From Rhizobiales bacterium Y(2018) (lineage in GTDB: Bacteria; Pseudomonadota; Alphaproteobacteria; Rhizobiales; Aestuariivirgaceae): DNA of 64,000 nt. The notes under the pieces are model-generated. The model did no database searches, was not told where the DNA came from, and saw only the letters and a program-made list of their open reading frames with translations. A program made the translations under genes and the position numbers. Below are positions 19,517 to 25,454 of this stretch, piece after piece (the first letter of the stretch is position 1; each line of letters starts with the position of its first letter). The stretch is from the NCBI GenBank assembly GCA_005502925.1, contig SCPD01000012.1:124001-188000 (forward strand). The letters run 5' to 3'.

Positions 19517-21946
19517 ATGAAACTCAAGCTTTTGTCGCTGATGGGCACGTCGACAGCGTGTCTCATCGCTGTAGGGTTTTCGTCGACGCAACAGGCCGAG
19601 GCAGCCTGTTCCGGACTTCCTGGCACGGCAGGCGCCGACACGATCGTCTGTGACGGCAATGCACCAGACCCAACCGGTTTCTTCAATACCGGCGCCGGCA
19701 ATGACAGCATCACCATCACCGGCGGCACCATCACCGTCGATCCCGGCAATATCGACAGCAATGCCGCGATCGGCGCCCTCAGCATTCAGCAGGAGGACGG
19801 CCGGGACCGGCTGGAGATCAGCGCGGGCACGGTGCAGGGCGCCGTCAACCAGGGCGCGGGCATCGACACGTTCATCATGTCCGGCGGCCAGATCGCCGCG
19901 CTCAACCAGGCGAGCGATCTCGACGTCGCCGTGATCAGCGGTGGGCGGATTGTCGGCCTGTTCTTCGCCGGCGACGATGTCACCATGACGGGCGGGCAGA
20001 TCGGCACGGTCGATCTCGAGCAGGCCAATAATATCCTGAAAATGTCCGGCGGCACGATCGACACCGACGTGCTGGCGCAGCAGCACAATGACACGCTCAT
20101 TCTGTCGGGTGGCTCGATCGGCGGCACGGTCAACTTCCGGAATGGCACCAACAGCTTCACCGTCACCGGCGGCAGCATCGGCGGCAATGTGCAAAGCGGG
20201 ACGGGGACCGACACATTCACCTGGGACGGCGGCGGCACGATCGGCGGCAGCGTGACGCTTGGCGACGCCAATGACAGCGCCAATTTGCGCAATCTCACCG
20301 ATGCCATCATCGGCGGAACGGTCATCGACGGACAGACCGGCACCGACACGCTCACTTTTTCCGGCACCAATGCCAGCTGGGCGGCGCAATTCCTGAACTG
20401 GGAGAATGCCGATCTCACCAACAACACGACGATCACCGCAACGGAAGATATCGTGCTTGGCGATGCCGGCACGCTGCAAGGCGCGATGACGATCGACGGC
20501 TCGAGCCGGCTGCTCGCCGGCAACAATGTCAATGCGGTGTTCCGGGCCTTCGATCCCACCGGCACGGCCAGCCTCAGCAATGCCGGCGCCATCGATCTGA
20601 CGAATGGCGGCAGCGGCGCCAATGATACATTCACGGCCCGCGGCCAATATGCCGGCAATGGCGGGCGCGTCATCCTCGACACGGTACTCGGGAATGACGC
20701 TTCGGATTCCGATCGGCTGATCCTCGCCGATGCGCCGGCCATCGGCACGACCGGGCTCGAGATCCGCAATTTCGGCGGGCCCGGCGCGCTTACCACCGCT
20801 GACGGCATTCTGGTGGTCGAGGAGCAGGGCGGCGCATCCGCCGGCACGGCTTTCCACCTGGCCGAGCCGGTCGCCGCCGGCGCCTTCGACTATCTGCTCT
20901 TCCAGGGCAATGCGGCGGGCGATGAGGCGAATAACTGGTATCTGCGTTCGCAGCTTATCGATGAAGGGCCGGATCCGGAGCCCGCCATTCCGCTCTACCG
21001 TCCGGAAGTTGCGATCCAGTCGGCGGTGGCGCCGCTCGCCCGGGAGCTCACCGCTGTCATGCTCGGCACGTTCCACGAGCGGCGCGGCGAGCAAGCTCTG
21101 TTCCGCGACGGGCAGGAGGGCAGCCGCTTCTGGATGCGCAGCTTCGCCCAGTATCTCGACATGTCCTGGGACGGAACGGTCGATCCGTCCTTCGAAGGGG
21201 CGGCCTTCGGCTTCCAGGCCGGCGCCGATTTCTACCGCGAAAAAAGCGCGAGCGGCGGGATCACCGCGGCAGGCCTGTTCGGCGGCTATGGCCGCATCAC
21301 GGGCGATGTCGAAGGCTTCGCCCAGGCGATCGATGATTTCGAGGCGGGCGATGCGCCGATCAACGGCTACAGCATCGGCGCCAATGTCGTCCATGTCGGC
21401 CCAGAAGGCTGGTATCTCGACGCCGTCCTGATGGGCACGCTTCTCGACGGCCGGCCCAATTCGGATCGCGGCGTCTCGGCCGATCTCGACGGCACCGCCA
21501 TCACGGCCTCGCTCGAAGGCGGCATTCCGATCGCGCTCGGCGAGGGCATCGCGCTCGAGCCGCAGGCGCAGGTCATCTGGCAGCATCTCGATCTCGACGA
21601 CAGCGAGGATGATTTCGCCGACATCAACTACGATACGCCCGACACCTTCACCGGCCGCCTCGGCGCGCGCCTCACCGGCAGCTTCGAAAGCGACGCCGGA
21701 ACGCAGTGGCAGCCTTATCTCAAGGCCAATCTCTGGTATTCGCCGTCCAAGACCGACGAGGTCAACTTCGATGCTGACGAAGTGAAGACGAAGATCGGCA
21801 CCACGGCGGTCGAGGTCGGCGGCGGTCTCGTCGCGGCGGTTTCCGACCGCGTGAGCCTGTTCGGCACCGGCGATTACACGTTCGATATCGGCGGACAGGA
21901 GAAGGAAGCGGTCGAAGGCAATCTCGGCCTGCAAGTCTCTTGGTGA
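19517..21946 (+). CDS. Autotransporter with beta-barrel domain
   Basis: 809 residues. It has a signal peptide (MKLKLLSLMGTSTACLIAVG...QAEA), then a passenger of about 480 residues rich in beta-helix-like turns with recurring SGGxIGGxV and GTDTF motifs. An AIDA/AT-type barrel runs from about residue 530 (SRFWMRSFAQYLDMSWDG) and ends in a terminal Trp, as required for Bam insertion. A single Cys lies in the mature N terminus. The passenger is predicted to be displayed at the surface; its role (adhesion, biofilm or other) is unknown. GGGGGA precedes the ATG. The stop overlaps the start of the kinase gene. Confidence 0.92.
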   Translation: MKLKLLSLMGTSTACLIAVGFSSTQQAEAACSGLPGTAGADTIVCDGNAPDPTGFFNTGAGNDSITITGGTITVDPGNIDSNAAIGALSIQQEDGRDRLEISAGTVQGAVNQGAGIDTFIMSGGQIAALNQASDLDVAVISGGRIVGLFFAGDDVTMTGGQIGTVDLEQANNILKMSGGTIDTDVLAQQHNDTLILSGGSIGGTVNFRNGTNSFTVTGGSIGGNVQSGTGTDTFTWDGGGTIGGSVTLGDANDSANLRNLTDAIIGGTVIDGQTGTDTLTFSGTNASWAAQFLNWENADLTNNTTITATEDIVLGDAGTLQGAMTIDGSSRLLAGNNVNAVFRAFDPTGTASLSNAGAIDLTNGGSGANDTFTARGQYAGNGGRVILDTVLGNDASDSDRLILADAPAIGTTGLEIRNFGGPGALTTADGILVVEEQGGASAGTAFHLAEPVAAGAFDYLLFQGNAAGDEANNWYLRSQLIDEGPDPEPAIPLYRPEVAIQSAVAPLARELTAVMLGTFHERRGEQALFRDGQEGSRFWMRSFAQYLDMSWDGTVDPSFEGAAFGFQAGADFYREKSASGGITAAGLFGGYGRITGDVEGFAQAIDDFEAGDAPINGYSIGANVVHVGPEGWYLDAVLMGTLLDGRPNSDRGVSADLDGTAITASLEGGIPIALGEGIALEPQAQVIWQHLDLDDSEDDFADINYDTPDTFTGRLGARLTGSFESDAGTQWQPYLKANLWYSPSKTDEVNFDADEVKTKIGTTAVEVGGGLVAAVSDRVSLFGTGDYTFDIGGQEKEAVEGNLGLQVSW

Positions 21947-22467
21947 GGGAAGGGGCGCGAAAGCGGCTCTTCATCATCACCGGGGCGATGGCGGCCGGCA
22001 AGTCGACCGTCGCCCAGCTCCTCGCCGAGCGTCTGCCGAAATCGGTGCATCTGCGCGGCGATCTGTTCCGCCGCATGATCGTCAATGGCGCCGCCGAAAT
22101 GGGGCCCGAGCTGTCGGAAGAGGCCAAGGCGCAGCTCGCTCTGCGCCACCGTCTCGCTTGTGACGCGGCGCGCGCCTATGTCGAAACGGGCTTCAGCGTC
22201 GTCTATCAGGACATATTGATCGGGACGTCCTTGAAGGACGTGGCCGAGCGGCTCGCCGATCTCGATCCGATGATCGTCGTGCTCAATCCCAAGGCCGATG
22301 TCCTGGCCAAGCGCGATGCGGCGCGCCACAAGACCGGTTACAGCGAAGGATTTCCGCCCGAGGTGCTGGCTGAGGCGCTGGAGCGCGAGACGCCGCGCCT
22401 CGGCCTGTGGCTCGATACCTCGCGGATGACCGCCGAAGAGGTGGTGGACAGGATTCTCAGAGCTTAA
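21943..22467 (+). CDS. P-loop kinase-like protein (AAA_33 / zeta-toxin-like), function unknown
   Basis: About 174 residues of a small P-loop NTPase. Walker A is IITGAMAAGKSTVAQLLAERL near the N terminus, followed by HLRGDLFRRM (an acidic residue where nucleotide and sugar kinases place a substrate-binding base). A lid-like Arg/Lys-rich stretch lies near DVLAKRDAARHKTG. This is the layout of gluconate-kinase, chloramphenicol-phosphotransferase and zeta-like kinases. The start is GTG at 21943, overlapping the TGA of the autotransporter (GTGA); TTG at 21940 is also in frame. Its stop shares four bases with the stop of the convergent acetyltransferase gene. Confidence 0.85.
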   Translation: MREGARKRLFIITGAMAAGKSTVAQLLAERLPKSVHLRGDLFRRMIVNGAAEMGPELSEEAKAQLALRHRLACDAARAYVETGFSVVYQDILIGTSLKDVAERLADLDPMIVVLNPKADVLAKRDAARHKTGYSEGFPPEVLAEALERETPRLGLWLDTSRMTAEEVVDRILRA

Positions 22468-23015
22468 TCGAGCGCCTTCCGCAGACAGGCGATGCGTTCG
22501 ACTTCGGTGAAGCCGTAAGCGTGGTGCGCGCCGAGGCTAACCTCGTTTTCGATTTGCGTATCACTCGCCATTTCGGTGAAACCGCTGGCTTTCGCCCAGT
22601 CCCCGGCGGCACTCATCAAGAGGCGGCCGACATTCCGCCGGCGGGTGCTTTCCGCGACATAGAGGCCCTCGACATAGGGAACCGGGGACGAGGCGCAGCC
22701 CTCGGCATAGTTGCGCAAGGAGAGCTCGACAAAACCTAGCGCGCATCCCGGCGAAGTGGAATCACTTCGCCGAAGAGGATTCGCGCCAGGCCAATATTGG
22801 AGCAAATCCTTATCGCCAAAGTCTTCAACTTTGGCGGGATTTGCTATCGGGCCACCGTCCTCGGCGATGAAGGCGCGGGCGATCATCGGATCAGCGGCGA
22901 AATAGCCTTCGACCTCCGCCAGAAGCGAGGGATCCTCGCCATAAAGGGCTGCCCGCATATCGCGCCAGGCGGCCTTGTCCTCCGGCCGCACTTCGCGGAC
23001 GACGATGTCGGCCAT
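22464..23015 (-). CDS. GNAT acetyltransferase (aminoglycoside 6'-N-acetyltransferase-like) with an internal insertion
   Basis: 183 residues. The start REVRPEDKAAWRDMRAALY and the CoA-binding region VPYVEGLYVAESTRRRNVGRLL mark a GNAT of the AAC(6') type, ending with HHAYGFTEVERIACLRK. Residues about 57-89, between the strands AFIAEDGG and ALGFVELSLR, look inserted: they are coded by a palindromic DNA element (22748-22850) that stays in frame. The start ATG overlaps the helicase stop (TGATG), which argues that the gene is still translated. Whether the enzyme is active is open. The substrate is unknown; the name does not prove antibiotic resistance. Confidence 0.85.
   Translation of the reverse strand: MADIVVREVRPEDKAAWRDMRAALYGEDPSLLAEVEGYFAADPMIARAFIAEDGGPIANPAKVEDFGDKDLLQYWPGANPLRRSDSTSPGCALGFVELSLRNYAEGCASSPVPYVEGLYVAESTRRRNVGRLLMSAAGDWAKASGFTEMASDTQIENEVSLGAHHAYGFTEVERIACLRKALD
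22748..22850. repeat. Palindromic element inserted in frame in the acetyltransferase gene
   Basis: The element holds two strong palindromes. The first is GGCGAAGTG-GAAT-CACTTCGCC (22750-22771), with perfect nine-base arms. The second is nested: GCAAATCC (22802-22809) with GGATTTGC (22837-22844) outside, and GCCAAAGT (22815-22822) with ACTTTGGC (22828-22835) inside. The span is open in the acetyltransferase frame. It resembles rhizobial intergenic palindromes and, in behaviour, the protein-coding palindromic elements known from Rickettsia. The exact borders are estimated. Confidence 0.75.
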
Positions 23016-25360
23016 CACGCCAGCTCGATGAAGGAATCGAGCACGCGTTTTTCGCCCGCCTTGTCGAAGTCGATGGTGAGCTTGTTGCCGTCGACATGGC
23101 TGACCCGGCCATAGCCGAATTTCTGGTGGAAGACGCGGGCACCGCGGGCGATGTTCTTGCCCTCGGTCTCGCGCGCCACCAGCTGGCCCTCGATGATGTT
23201 GGGCGAAGAGCGCATCGCCTCGCCTTTGGCATAGGCGCGCTGGGCACGTTGCCAGCCGGGCGTGTCATAGGTGTTGGAGAAGGGCGTGGTGCGCTCCTCG
23301 AAGCGGCTGGTGCCATAGGAGCCGATCCCGTAGCCGCCATAGGAATTGGCCATCGGGGCCACTTCGACATGGGCTTCCGGCAATTCGTCGATGAAGCGCG
23401 ATGGCAGGCTCGACTGCCAGAGATTATGGACGCGGCGGTTCTGGGCGAAGGAAATAGTGGCGCGGCGCTTGGCGCGGGTGATGCCGACATAGGCGAGGCG
23501 GCGCTCTTCTTCCAGGCCGGCGCGGCCATTCTCGTCGAGCGAGCGCTGATGCGGGAAAAGGCCTTCCTCCCAGCCGGGCAGGAAGACGGTGCCGAATTCG
23601 AGCCCTTTGGCGGAATGCAAGGTCATGATGTTGACCTTGTCCTCGCTGGCATTGGATTCGGTGTCCATGACGAGAGCGATATGCTCGAGGAACCCTTCCA
23701 TGGTCTCGAACTCACCCATCGAGCGGACCAGTTCTTTGAGGTTTTCGAGGCGCCCTTGCGCTTCCGGGCTCTTGTCGTTCTGCCACATGGTCGTATAGCC
23801 CGACTCGTCGAGGATGATCTCGGCGAGCTCGGTATGGGGCAGGCCCTGCAGCGCCTGGCGCCAGCGTCCGAAGGATTCGAGGAGCGAGCGCAGGGCGCTG
23901 CGCGTCTTGGCCGGCAATTCGTCGGTCTGGCTCACGGCCTCGGCGGCGCGGTAGAGCGAGTAGCCATTCTTGCGGGCATGCTCATGCATGCGCTTGACGG
24001 AGGTGTCGCCGATGCCGCGTTTCGGCACGTTGATGATGCGCTCAAAAGCGAGGTCGTTGTCGGGTGAAGCCGTGATCTTGAGATAGGCCAGCGCGTCGCG
24101 CACTTCCTGGCGCTCATAGAAGCGCGGGCCACCGACGACGCGGTAGGGGACGCCCAGCGTGATGAATCGATCTTCGAAAGCGCGCATCTGGAAGGACGCG
24201 CGCACCAGGATCGCCATGTCGTTGAGCTTCTCGCCCTTGCGCTGCAGCTGCTCGATATCCTCACCGATGGCGCGGGCTTCCTCATCGCCGTCCCAATGCG
24301 AGCGCAAGGTGATCTGGTCGCCGTCGTCGCGCTCGCTTCTGAGCGTCTTGCCGAGGCGGCTCTCATTCTTGGCGATGAGGCCGGAAGCGGCGCCCAGAAT
24401 CTGCGGGGTCGAGCGGTAATTGCGCTCGAGGCGGATGACCTTGGCGCCGGGAAAATCCTTCTCGAAGCGCAGGATGTTGTCGATCTCGGCGCCGCGCCAG
24501 CCATAGATCGACTGATCGTCGTCGCCGACGCAGCAGATGTTCTTGTGGCCGTGGGCGAGGAGCCGCAGCCACAGATACTGGGCGACATTGGTGTCCTGAT
24601 ATTCGTCGACCAGCATGTATTTGAAGCGGCGCTGATACTCTTTCAGCACGTCGGGATGGTCCTGGAAGATATGCAGGACCTCGAGCAGCAGGTCGCCGAA
24701 ATCGACGGCGTTCACGACCCGGAGACGCGCCTGATATTCCGCGTAGAGCTCGGCGCCCCGGCCATTGCCATAGGCATGAGCCTCGCCGGCCGGGACGCGC
24801 GCCGGCAGCAGGCCGCGATTCTTCCAGTTGTCGATGAGCCCGGCGAGCTGGCGGGCCGGCCAGCGTTTCTCGTCGATGCCGGCGGCCTCGATGATCTGCT
24901 TCAGCAGCCGGATCTGGTCGTCGGTGTCGAGGATCGAGAAGCCGGATTTGAGGCCGGCGAGCTCGGCATGGGAGCGCAGGATCTTGACACCAATGGCGTG
25001 GAAGGTGCCGAGCCAGGTCATGCCCTCGACCACGCCGCCGATCAGGTGGCCGATGCGCTCCCTCATCTCGCGTGCCGCCTTGTTGGTGAAGGTGACGCAC
25101 AGAATCTGCCCCGGCCAGGCCTTGCCGGTGGCGAGGATATGGGCGAGGCGGGTGGTGAGCACCCGGGTCTTGCCGGTGCCGGCACCAGCCAGCACCAGAA
25201 GCGGACCATCGATCGTCTCGACCGCCGCCCGCTGCTCGGGGTTGAGGCCTTTCAGATAGGGGGCTTCAGCACCCGCCAAGGCGCGCGCGCTCAGCCCGCC
25301 CGGCTTCTGCGGCGGCGGGGCCTCTTCGAAATCACCTAGATCAATGGGACGCGACGTCAT
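23015..25360 (-). CDS. UvrD/PcrA-type ATP-dependent DNA helicase
   Basis: 781 residues of an SF1A 3'-5' helicase used in nucleotide excision and mismatch repair and in clearing replication blocks. Visible motifs: Walker A AGAGTGKTRVLTTRL (residues about 58-72), motif Ia CVTFTNKAAREM, DEXX box VDEYQDTN, motif III VGDDDQSIYGWRGA, motif IV LERNYRS, motif V TLHSAKGLEF, and VGITRAKRRATI. The C-terminal Tudor-like tail (ARVFHQKFGYGRVSHVDGN) is the RNA-polymerase-binding type found in PcrA/UvrD. The ATG at 25360 is chosen because the frame upstream lacks family sequence. It is first in a two-gene unit with the acetyltransferase. Confidence 0.95.
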   Translation of the reverse strand: MTSRPIDLGDFEEAPPPQKPGGLSARALAGAEAPYLKGLNPEQRAAVETIDGPLLVLAGAGTGKTRVLTTRLAHILATGKAWPGQILCVTFTNKAAREMRERIGHLIGGVVEGMTWLGTFHAIGVKILRSHAELAGLKSGFSILDTDDQIRLLKQIIEAAGIDEKRWPARQLAGLIDNWKNRGLLPARVPAGEAHAYGNGRGAELYAEYQARLRVVNAVDFGDLLLEVLHIFQDHPDVLKEYQRRFKYMLVDEYQDTNVAQYLWLRLLAHGHKNICCVGDDDQSIYGWRGAEIDNILRFEKDFPGAKVIRLERNYRSTPQILGAASGLIAKNESRLGKTLRSERDDGDQITLRSHWDGDEEARAIGEDIEQLQRKGEKLNDMAILVRASFQMRAFEDRFITLGVPYRVVGGPRFYERQEVRDALAYLKITASPDNDLAFERIINVPKRGIGDTSVKRMHEHARKNGYSLYRAAEAVSQTDELPAKTRSALRSLLESFGRWRQALQGLPHTELAEIILDESGYTTMWQNDKSPEAQGRLENLKELVRSMGEFETMEGFLEHIALVMDTESNASEDKVNIMTLHSAKGLEFGTVFLPGWEEGLFPHQRSLDENGRAGLEEERRLAYVGITRAKRRATISFAQNRRVHNLWQSSLPSRFIDELPEAHVEVAPMANSYGGYGIGSYGTSRFEERTTPFSNTYDTPGWQRAQRAYAKGEAMRSSPNIIEGQLVARETEGKNIARGARVFHQKFGYGRVSHVDGNKLTIDFDKAGEKRVLDSFIELA

Positions 25361-25454
25361 GGTAAAAGGGTGCGAATCCTGAAGTTTCGCACCCTTATAT
25401 AGCAACTCCGCGCCGGATCACGATGCCTTTGGCCGGAGCCAAAACCGGCCATTT

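Follow-up and report, generated by a model that had tools for sequence, protein, structure and literature searches.

How can a gene take up a palindromic repeat in its interior and keep its reading frame, and does the repeat then become part of the protein? This question is raised by an AAC(6')-like GNAT acetyltransferase gene of a soil bacterium, Rhizobiales bacterium Y(2018). The gene lies in the 64,000-nucleotide stretch of DNA that was analysed as a whole, referred to below as the window (contig SCPD01000012.1, positions 124,001 to 188,000; G000:C3:124001-188000 in our notation), in a genome of 7.1 Mb. An original prediction, made from the letters of the sequence, had proposed that a palindromic mobile element sits in frame inside this gene. 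We conclude with considerable confidence that a non-autonomous element, similar to a miniature inverted-repeat transposable element (MITE), was inserted at a TA dinucleotide of the gene, that the TA was duplicated and the frame kept, and that the protein was probably enlarged.

The open reading frame (ORF) at 22464-23018 on the minus strand is uninterrupted, insert included, and one base is common to its ATG (23015) and the TGA of the helicase gene directly upstream, both as predicted. The two strong palindromes reported inside the gene were also found, with perfect arms. The element itself was thus correctly recognized, and its limits, placed at 22748-22850, were corrected to those in Table 1. 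The insert had been estimated at about 33 codons; ortholog comparison gave 108 nucleotides or 36 codons, corresponding to residues 58-93.

For comparisons within the genus, five genomes were used, our own (G000) and the sister genomes G001, G002, G003 and G004, the last of which is 87% complete. GNAT orthologs in G003 (L061) and G002 (L033), located behind the same helicase end, lack exactly these 108 nucleotides (36 residues), and their flanks align with those of the window gene. In G003 the insertion point falls between GGPI and GFVEL, and the net gain at our locus relative to that genome is 108 nucleotides. Distant relatives also lack the insert. AAC(6')-Iy (1s3z), the best relative of solved structure for the insert-free G003 protein (E 2.3e-24), aligned with it over residues 6-144 without a comparable insert, as did the plasmid-encoded AAC(6')-Il, which covers residues 5-146 at 44%. 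In tblastn searches with the insert-free protein, residues 11-146 were matched in 141 columns at L034 and residues 46-146 in 104 columns at L035, leaving no space for 36 additional residues.

The inserted DNA belongs to a dispersed repeat family. A search of our own genome gave 41 matches, 20 of which are near full length, including the window copy; the other 19 are 81-94% identical to it. All five genus genomes contain matches, at least 41 to at least 46 in each (the best 40 candidates were scored per genome), and the copies measure about 100-111 bp. From 130 loci we obtained 138 non-overlapping matches, discarded 16 partial ones and retained 122 near-full-length copies spanning the five genomes, with 20 from our own; the collection is a minimum of 122 and no complete census. 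The 122-copy consensus is 110 bp from TA to TA and consists of two nested hairpins inverted relative to each other; the coding strand of the GNAT gene carries the element in the consensus orientation. The consensus aligns to its own reverse complement end to end, indicating terminal inverted repeats (in the window copy, pair I2 with 82%). A TA was present at both ends of 54 copies, at the left end of 72 and at the right end of 81. The coding strand at the locus has a folding energy of -61.9 kcal/mol, compared with a mean of -31.5 kcal/mol for 200 shuffles (z -8.8), and an Rfam scan of positions 22400-23100 of the window gave no match. The element is therefore short, multicopy and dispersed, without a gene of its own, with terminal inverted repeats and with a probably duplicated TA, which are the features of MITEs that target TA. 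The mobile origin and in-frame insertion proposed originally are supported by these dispersed copies together with the insert-free homologs.

The designation as a rhizobial repeat was appropriate at the level of the order only. Among 150 genomes sampled from the order, with the best five candidates scored in each, at least five held matches, our own and four others. Close copies were seen in the genus alone, and the four other genomes hold diverged matches, the best of which is full length with 73% identity. This best match, a diverged relative in G114 from another family of the order (L247:1503-1619), retains the two-hairpin build and a CTAG end, and its arms still pair in spite of their differing letters; judging from this sequence, the fold rather than the letters would be the conserved property. 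A shorter relative with one hairpin, about 50 bp in length (AGAGCGCTTCCCGCC...), was also observed at L029 and L030 (1501), and ten further listed places in our own genome score like L030.

Empty sites provided information on the target. The window has two TAs at the borders of the insert and the G002 empty site has one. When element sites of our own genome were compared with G003, 12 of 16 were empty and four were occupied (L003, L004, L008 and L016), with a net gain of 106 to 113 nucleotides across the empty ones. The pattern of one TA when empty and two when filled was clean at L001 (with G002) and L015 (with G003), and L009, L010 (with G002) and L012 were compatible with TA duplication; their empty sites contain a TA, as does one of the element ends.

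We then consider where the copies sit relative to genes, as judged by a simple self-trained gene caller, which may have missed further gene-body copies; this caller took the place of an earlier coding-potential model trained on the window, which separated genes poorly. Among the 122 copies, 68 were intergenic, 27 had a gene stop codon at the element end, 23 overlapped a gene start or end, and four lay within a called gene. Apart from the GNAT gene, the within-gene calls were L138, L139 and L202, all near the called start, and in L138 the sole Pfam domain starts past the element. We read these three as start codons called too early, and in our judgement the GNAT gene represents the one clear gene-body insertion in the collection. 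A Pfam scan covering 20 of the 49 passages open on both sides of an element revealed no domain spanning the element. Domains were present in three of the 20 (L131, L138 and L152), each starting past the element.

Insertion of a usual element adds 112 nucleotides and leads to a frameshift; the length was a multiple of three in only five of the 54 copies with a TA at both ends. At either end, the usual element reads TA-G, and a TA in codon positions 1-2 consequently results in an immediate stop. In the GNAT gene, the TA occupies positions 2-3 of an ATA isoleucine codon. Compared with the consensus, the window copy is 2 bp shorter at one end and 2 bp shorter in the spacer, giving 106 + 2. We placed the 54 copies on two strands in three phases each: of these 324 placements, 143 were open, 30 kept the frame and 16 did both. 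With so few suitable placements, the finding that the only insertion in a gene body is open suggests selection for the frame.

The same figure, a chance of about one in twenty, can also be taken to mean that the insertion inactivated the enzyme and left a pseudogene, still very young, in which the open frame is accidental. The length of the insert relative to the 147-residue enzyme would agree with this, as would the incomplete distribution of the gene within the genus; a close ortholog was not found in G001 or in the 87% complete G004, where searches returned just element copies and weak matches. We nevertheless consider a pseudogene unlikely. The gene has no further indel or stop relative to G003, its start still overlaps the helicase stop, and 12 synonymous and four non-synonymous changes were assigned to its own branch by parsimony with G002 as outgroup. 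The ratio of non-synonymous to synonymous substitution rates (dN/dS) between our gene and that of G003 was 0.116, and third codon positions accounted for 13 of 22 and 11 of 18 differences from G003 within 200 nucleotides on either side of the insert. According to these substitution patterns, the gene outside the insert is under purifying selection; it is probably still a working gene, and its protein probably contains the 36 extra residues.

We thus favour insertion of a mobile element with the frame kept, which would have proceeded as follows. The element would have entered the GNAT gene at a TA, which was duplicated. Being 2 bp short at an end and 2 bp short in the spacer, its 106 bp together with the 2 bp of the TA would add up to a multiple of three, and with the TA in codon positions 2-3 no TAG would arise, allowing ribosomes to read across the element. 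The protein would gain 36 residues, which the enzyme would probably tolerate; given the usual GNAT topology, they would probably form a loop that joins strands two and three of the fold. The element itself would gain nothing from being translated. Duplication of TA indicates transposition of the IS630/Tc1-mariner type, and the element was probably moved in trans by such a TA-specific transposase, now absent from the genome or unrecognized.

Several observations weigh against this account. In G003, the empty site at the GNAT gene has TC instead of TA, and the TA pattern was not clean at seven of the 12 empty sites (L002, L005, L006, L007, L011, L013 and L014). The two spacer columns missing from the window copy are also missing in 8 and 21 of the 122 copies; as other copies share the loss, it can be explained without a repair of the frame and may have arrived with the copy. 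On our own branch, the signal of selection may be older than the insertion, which is not datable from it. An AlphaFold model built from two sequences had a mean predicted local distance difference test (pLDDT) score of 36.3 and was not used to judge loop tolerance. Finally, a DDE_3 search did not find an IS630-type transposase in our own genome.

Table 1. Features at the GNAT locus (window coordinates) and their basis.
Feature	Coordinates	Strand	Basis or details
MITE-like element, 106 bp	22739..22844	-	Copies, alignment, 122-copy consensus
TA, one copy of the probable target-site duplication	22737..22738		Single TA in the G002 (L033) empty site
TA, second copy of the probable target-site duplication	22845..22846		Empty-site comparison; TA/TA flanks in the family
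Hairpin module A	22739..22786		Outer arms GCGCGCATCC / GGATTCGCGC, one mismatch; inner arms 22749-22758 / 22763-22772, 10 nt, perfect pairing
Hairpin module B	22800..22844		Outer arms 22801-22809 / 22837-22845; inner arms 22814-22822 / 22828-22836; all 9 nt, perfect; final outer-arm base within the TA
GNAT acetyltransferase gene, AAC(6')-like, 183 aa, element inside in frame	22464..23015	-	Profile searches, ortholog comparison
UvrD-like helicase gene, directly upstream of the GNAT gene	23015..25405	-	ORF list, translation

The question of what moved the element was addressed through two groups of transposases. Genes of the IS630 type with DDE_3 matches were present in one of the five genus genomes, G002, with seven matches, and element ends do not frame those that were inspected; an autonomous partner with the same ends was thus not found among them. 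Six copies of an IS630-type transposase in G002 (L100-L105) had equal scores, and a copy of the element lies close to L100. RAYT-like genes occur in four of the five genomes, one each in G000, G001 and G002 and two in G004, one of the latter under the cut-off. Their presence, and the resemblance of the inverted hairpin pair to REP doublets, raised the possibility of a REPIN-type repeat that owes its mobility to a resident RAYT (a Y1 transposase) instead of a TA-specific MITE. We regard this as improbable. The surroundings of the RAYT loci (L095-L099) contain no copy of the element, the matches to it or to its single-hairpin relative being 11 nucleotides long, and no RAYT gene flanked by the same palindrome was found there. 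G003 has at least 43 element matches and no RAYT match, and we know of no REPIN with TA duplication. Next to L095, L097 and L098, three of the RAYT-like genes (L095, L096, L097 and L098), inspection of the translations by eye showed a repeat of a different type (LNALSP), which may be the REP belonging to these genes. Neither RAYT nor IS630 was supported, and no mobilizing transposase was identified for the element among the genes considered. As for the 36 residues being an old functional insertion of a GNAT subfamily with coincidental palindromes, the insert-free sister orthologs and distant relatives examined, the empty sites and the membership of the DNA in a dispersed repeat family refute this almost completely.

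Regarding the host protein, its GNAT domain (PF00583) scored 42 bits against a cut-off of 20.7. For the NCBIfam aminoglycoside acetyltransferase model NF043067, our protein scored 112.6 bits and that of G003 124.3 bits; both are under the cut-off of 140, and no substrate is therefore assigned. The family name of the UvrD-like helicase comes from a reading of its translation. Convergent to the GNAT gene, positions 21940-22467 on the plus strand encode a small P-loop protein with matches to AAA_33 and a chloramphenicol phosphotransferase-like profile.

The positions of the copies revealed a second tendency. For 27 of the 122 copies, the stop codon of a called gene is a TAG supplied by the element end (for example L013, L147, L151 and L205), and in three of them this is the case at both ends. 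In the flanks, stop codons accounted for 125 of 1,680 TAs that were non-coding or part of a stop codon; the excess of stop codons gave a binomial p of 2.6e-7, a value to be read with the reservation that copies common to several genomes are not independent. At L013 and L015, the G003 empty sites carry the stop codons TGA and TAA in the corresponding position; L015 does not count among the 27, as its end was placed 2 bp off. A bolder reading, which we consider less likely than not, is that the element ends are written in such a way that TA insertion in a stop codon restores a TAG, which would make gene ends the niche of the element, and that, in rare cases, insertion in another phase with a length that is a multiple of three would produce a protein loop.

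A literature search, judged by titles and the beginnings of abstracts, did not find a publication on this element. It represents a new family of an already known kind, with Rickettsia palindromic elements (RPEs) and ERIC as parallels. According to the excerpts of the articles, RPEs are inserted in frame in Rickettsia genes, and in the gmk case the product is translated and active with changed substrate affinity (PMC10969869, PMC2229807). The excerpts also describe them as palindromic, about 100-150 bp, multicopy and in frame in protein genes, at least one having TA at both ends (PMC2229807, PMC10969869), all of which our element shares. The comparison with RPEs drawn in the original prediction holds for the way of working and fails for the habit: RPEs often enter reading frames, whereas frequent in-frame presence was not seen here (one of 122 copies in a gene body, five of 54 keeping the frame); this comparison is by description. 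ERIC, or RU-1, along with RU-2 and RU-3, is comparable to the element in size, at about 100-170 bp, and in forming stable hairpins, and it likewise has TA ends with duplication, a mechanism not elucidated and in-frame gene fusions in enterobacteria (PMC2759123). It differs in its host class, and its fusions are frequently located at the ends of genes or within small ORFs, again by description and as far as the excerpts go (PMC2759123). According to the same excerpts, ERIC has no established mechanism, and an autonomous partner is not a requirement for all such families (PMC2759123). RUP of Streptococcus pneumoniae and the Correia/NEMIS elements of Neisseria are similar in their 107-bp size class, TA target (RUP) and non-autonomous nature, as described in the excerpted text (PMC2229807). 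RUP has ends in common with IS630-Spn1, whereas here DDE_3 occurs in one of five genomes with no framing by element ends. The AAC(6')-Iy and AAC(6')-Il proteins belong by sequence to the same family as the host protein. Three aspects are unusual here: the evidence from empty sites, a location in a gene body that is the exception and not the rule, and the tendency of the family to provide genes with stop codons.

In the partial accounts available, in-frame capture of small palindromic mobile elements has been described mainly in Rickettsia, enterobacteria and Neisseria. The GNAT gene adds a well-delimited example from a free-living representative of the Rhizobiales: sister genomes provide empty sites, the target was probably duplicated, and the structure of a related enzyme has been solved. 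How an enzyme deals with an additional loop can be examined directly at this locus. The element ends that serve as stop codons suggest a simple rule for the survival of such elements in dense genomes. If the proposed role of the ends is true, the acetyltransferase would show in a natural setting how a gene-end parasite can become a protein insertion.
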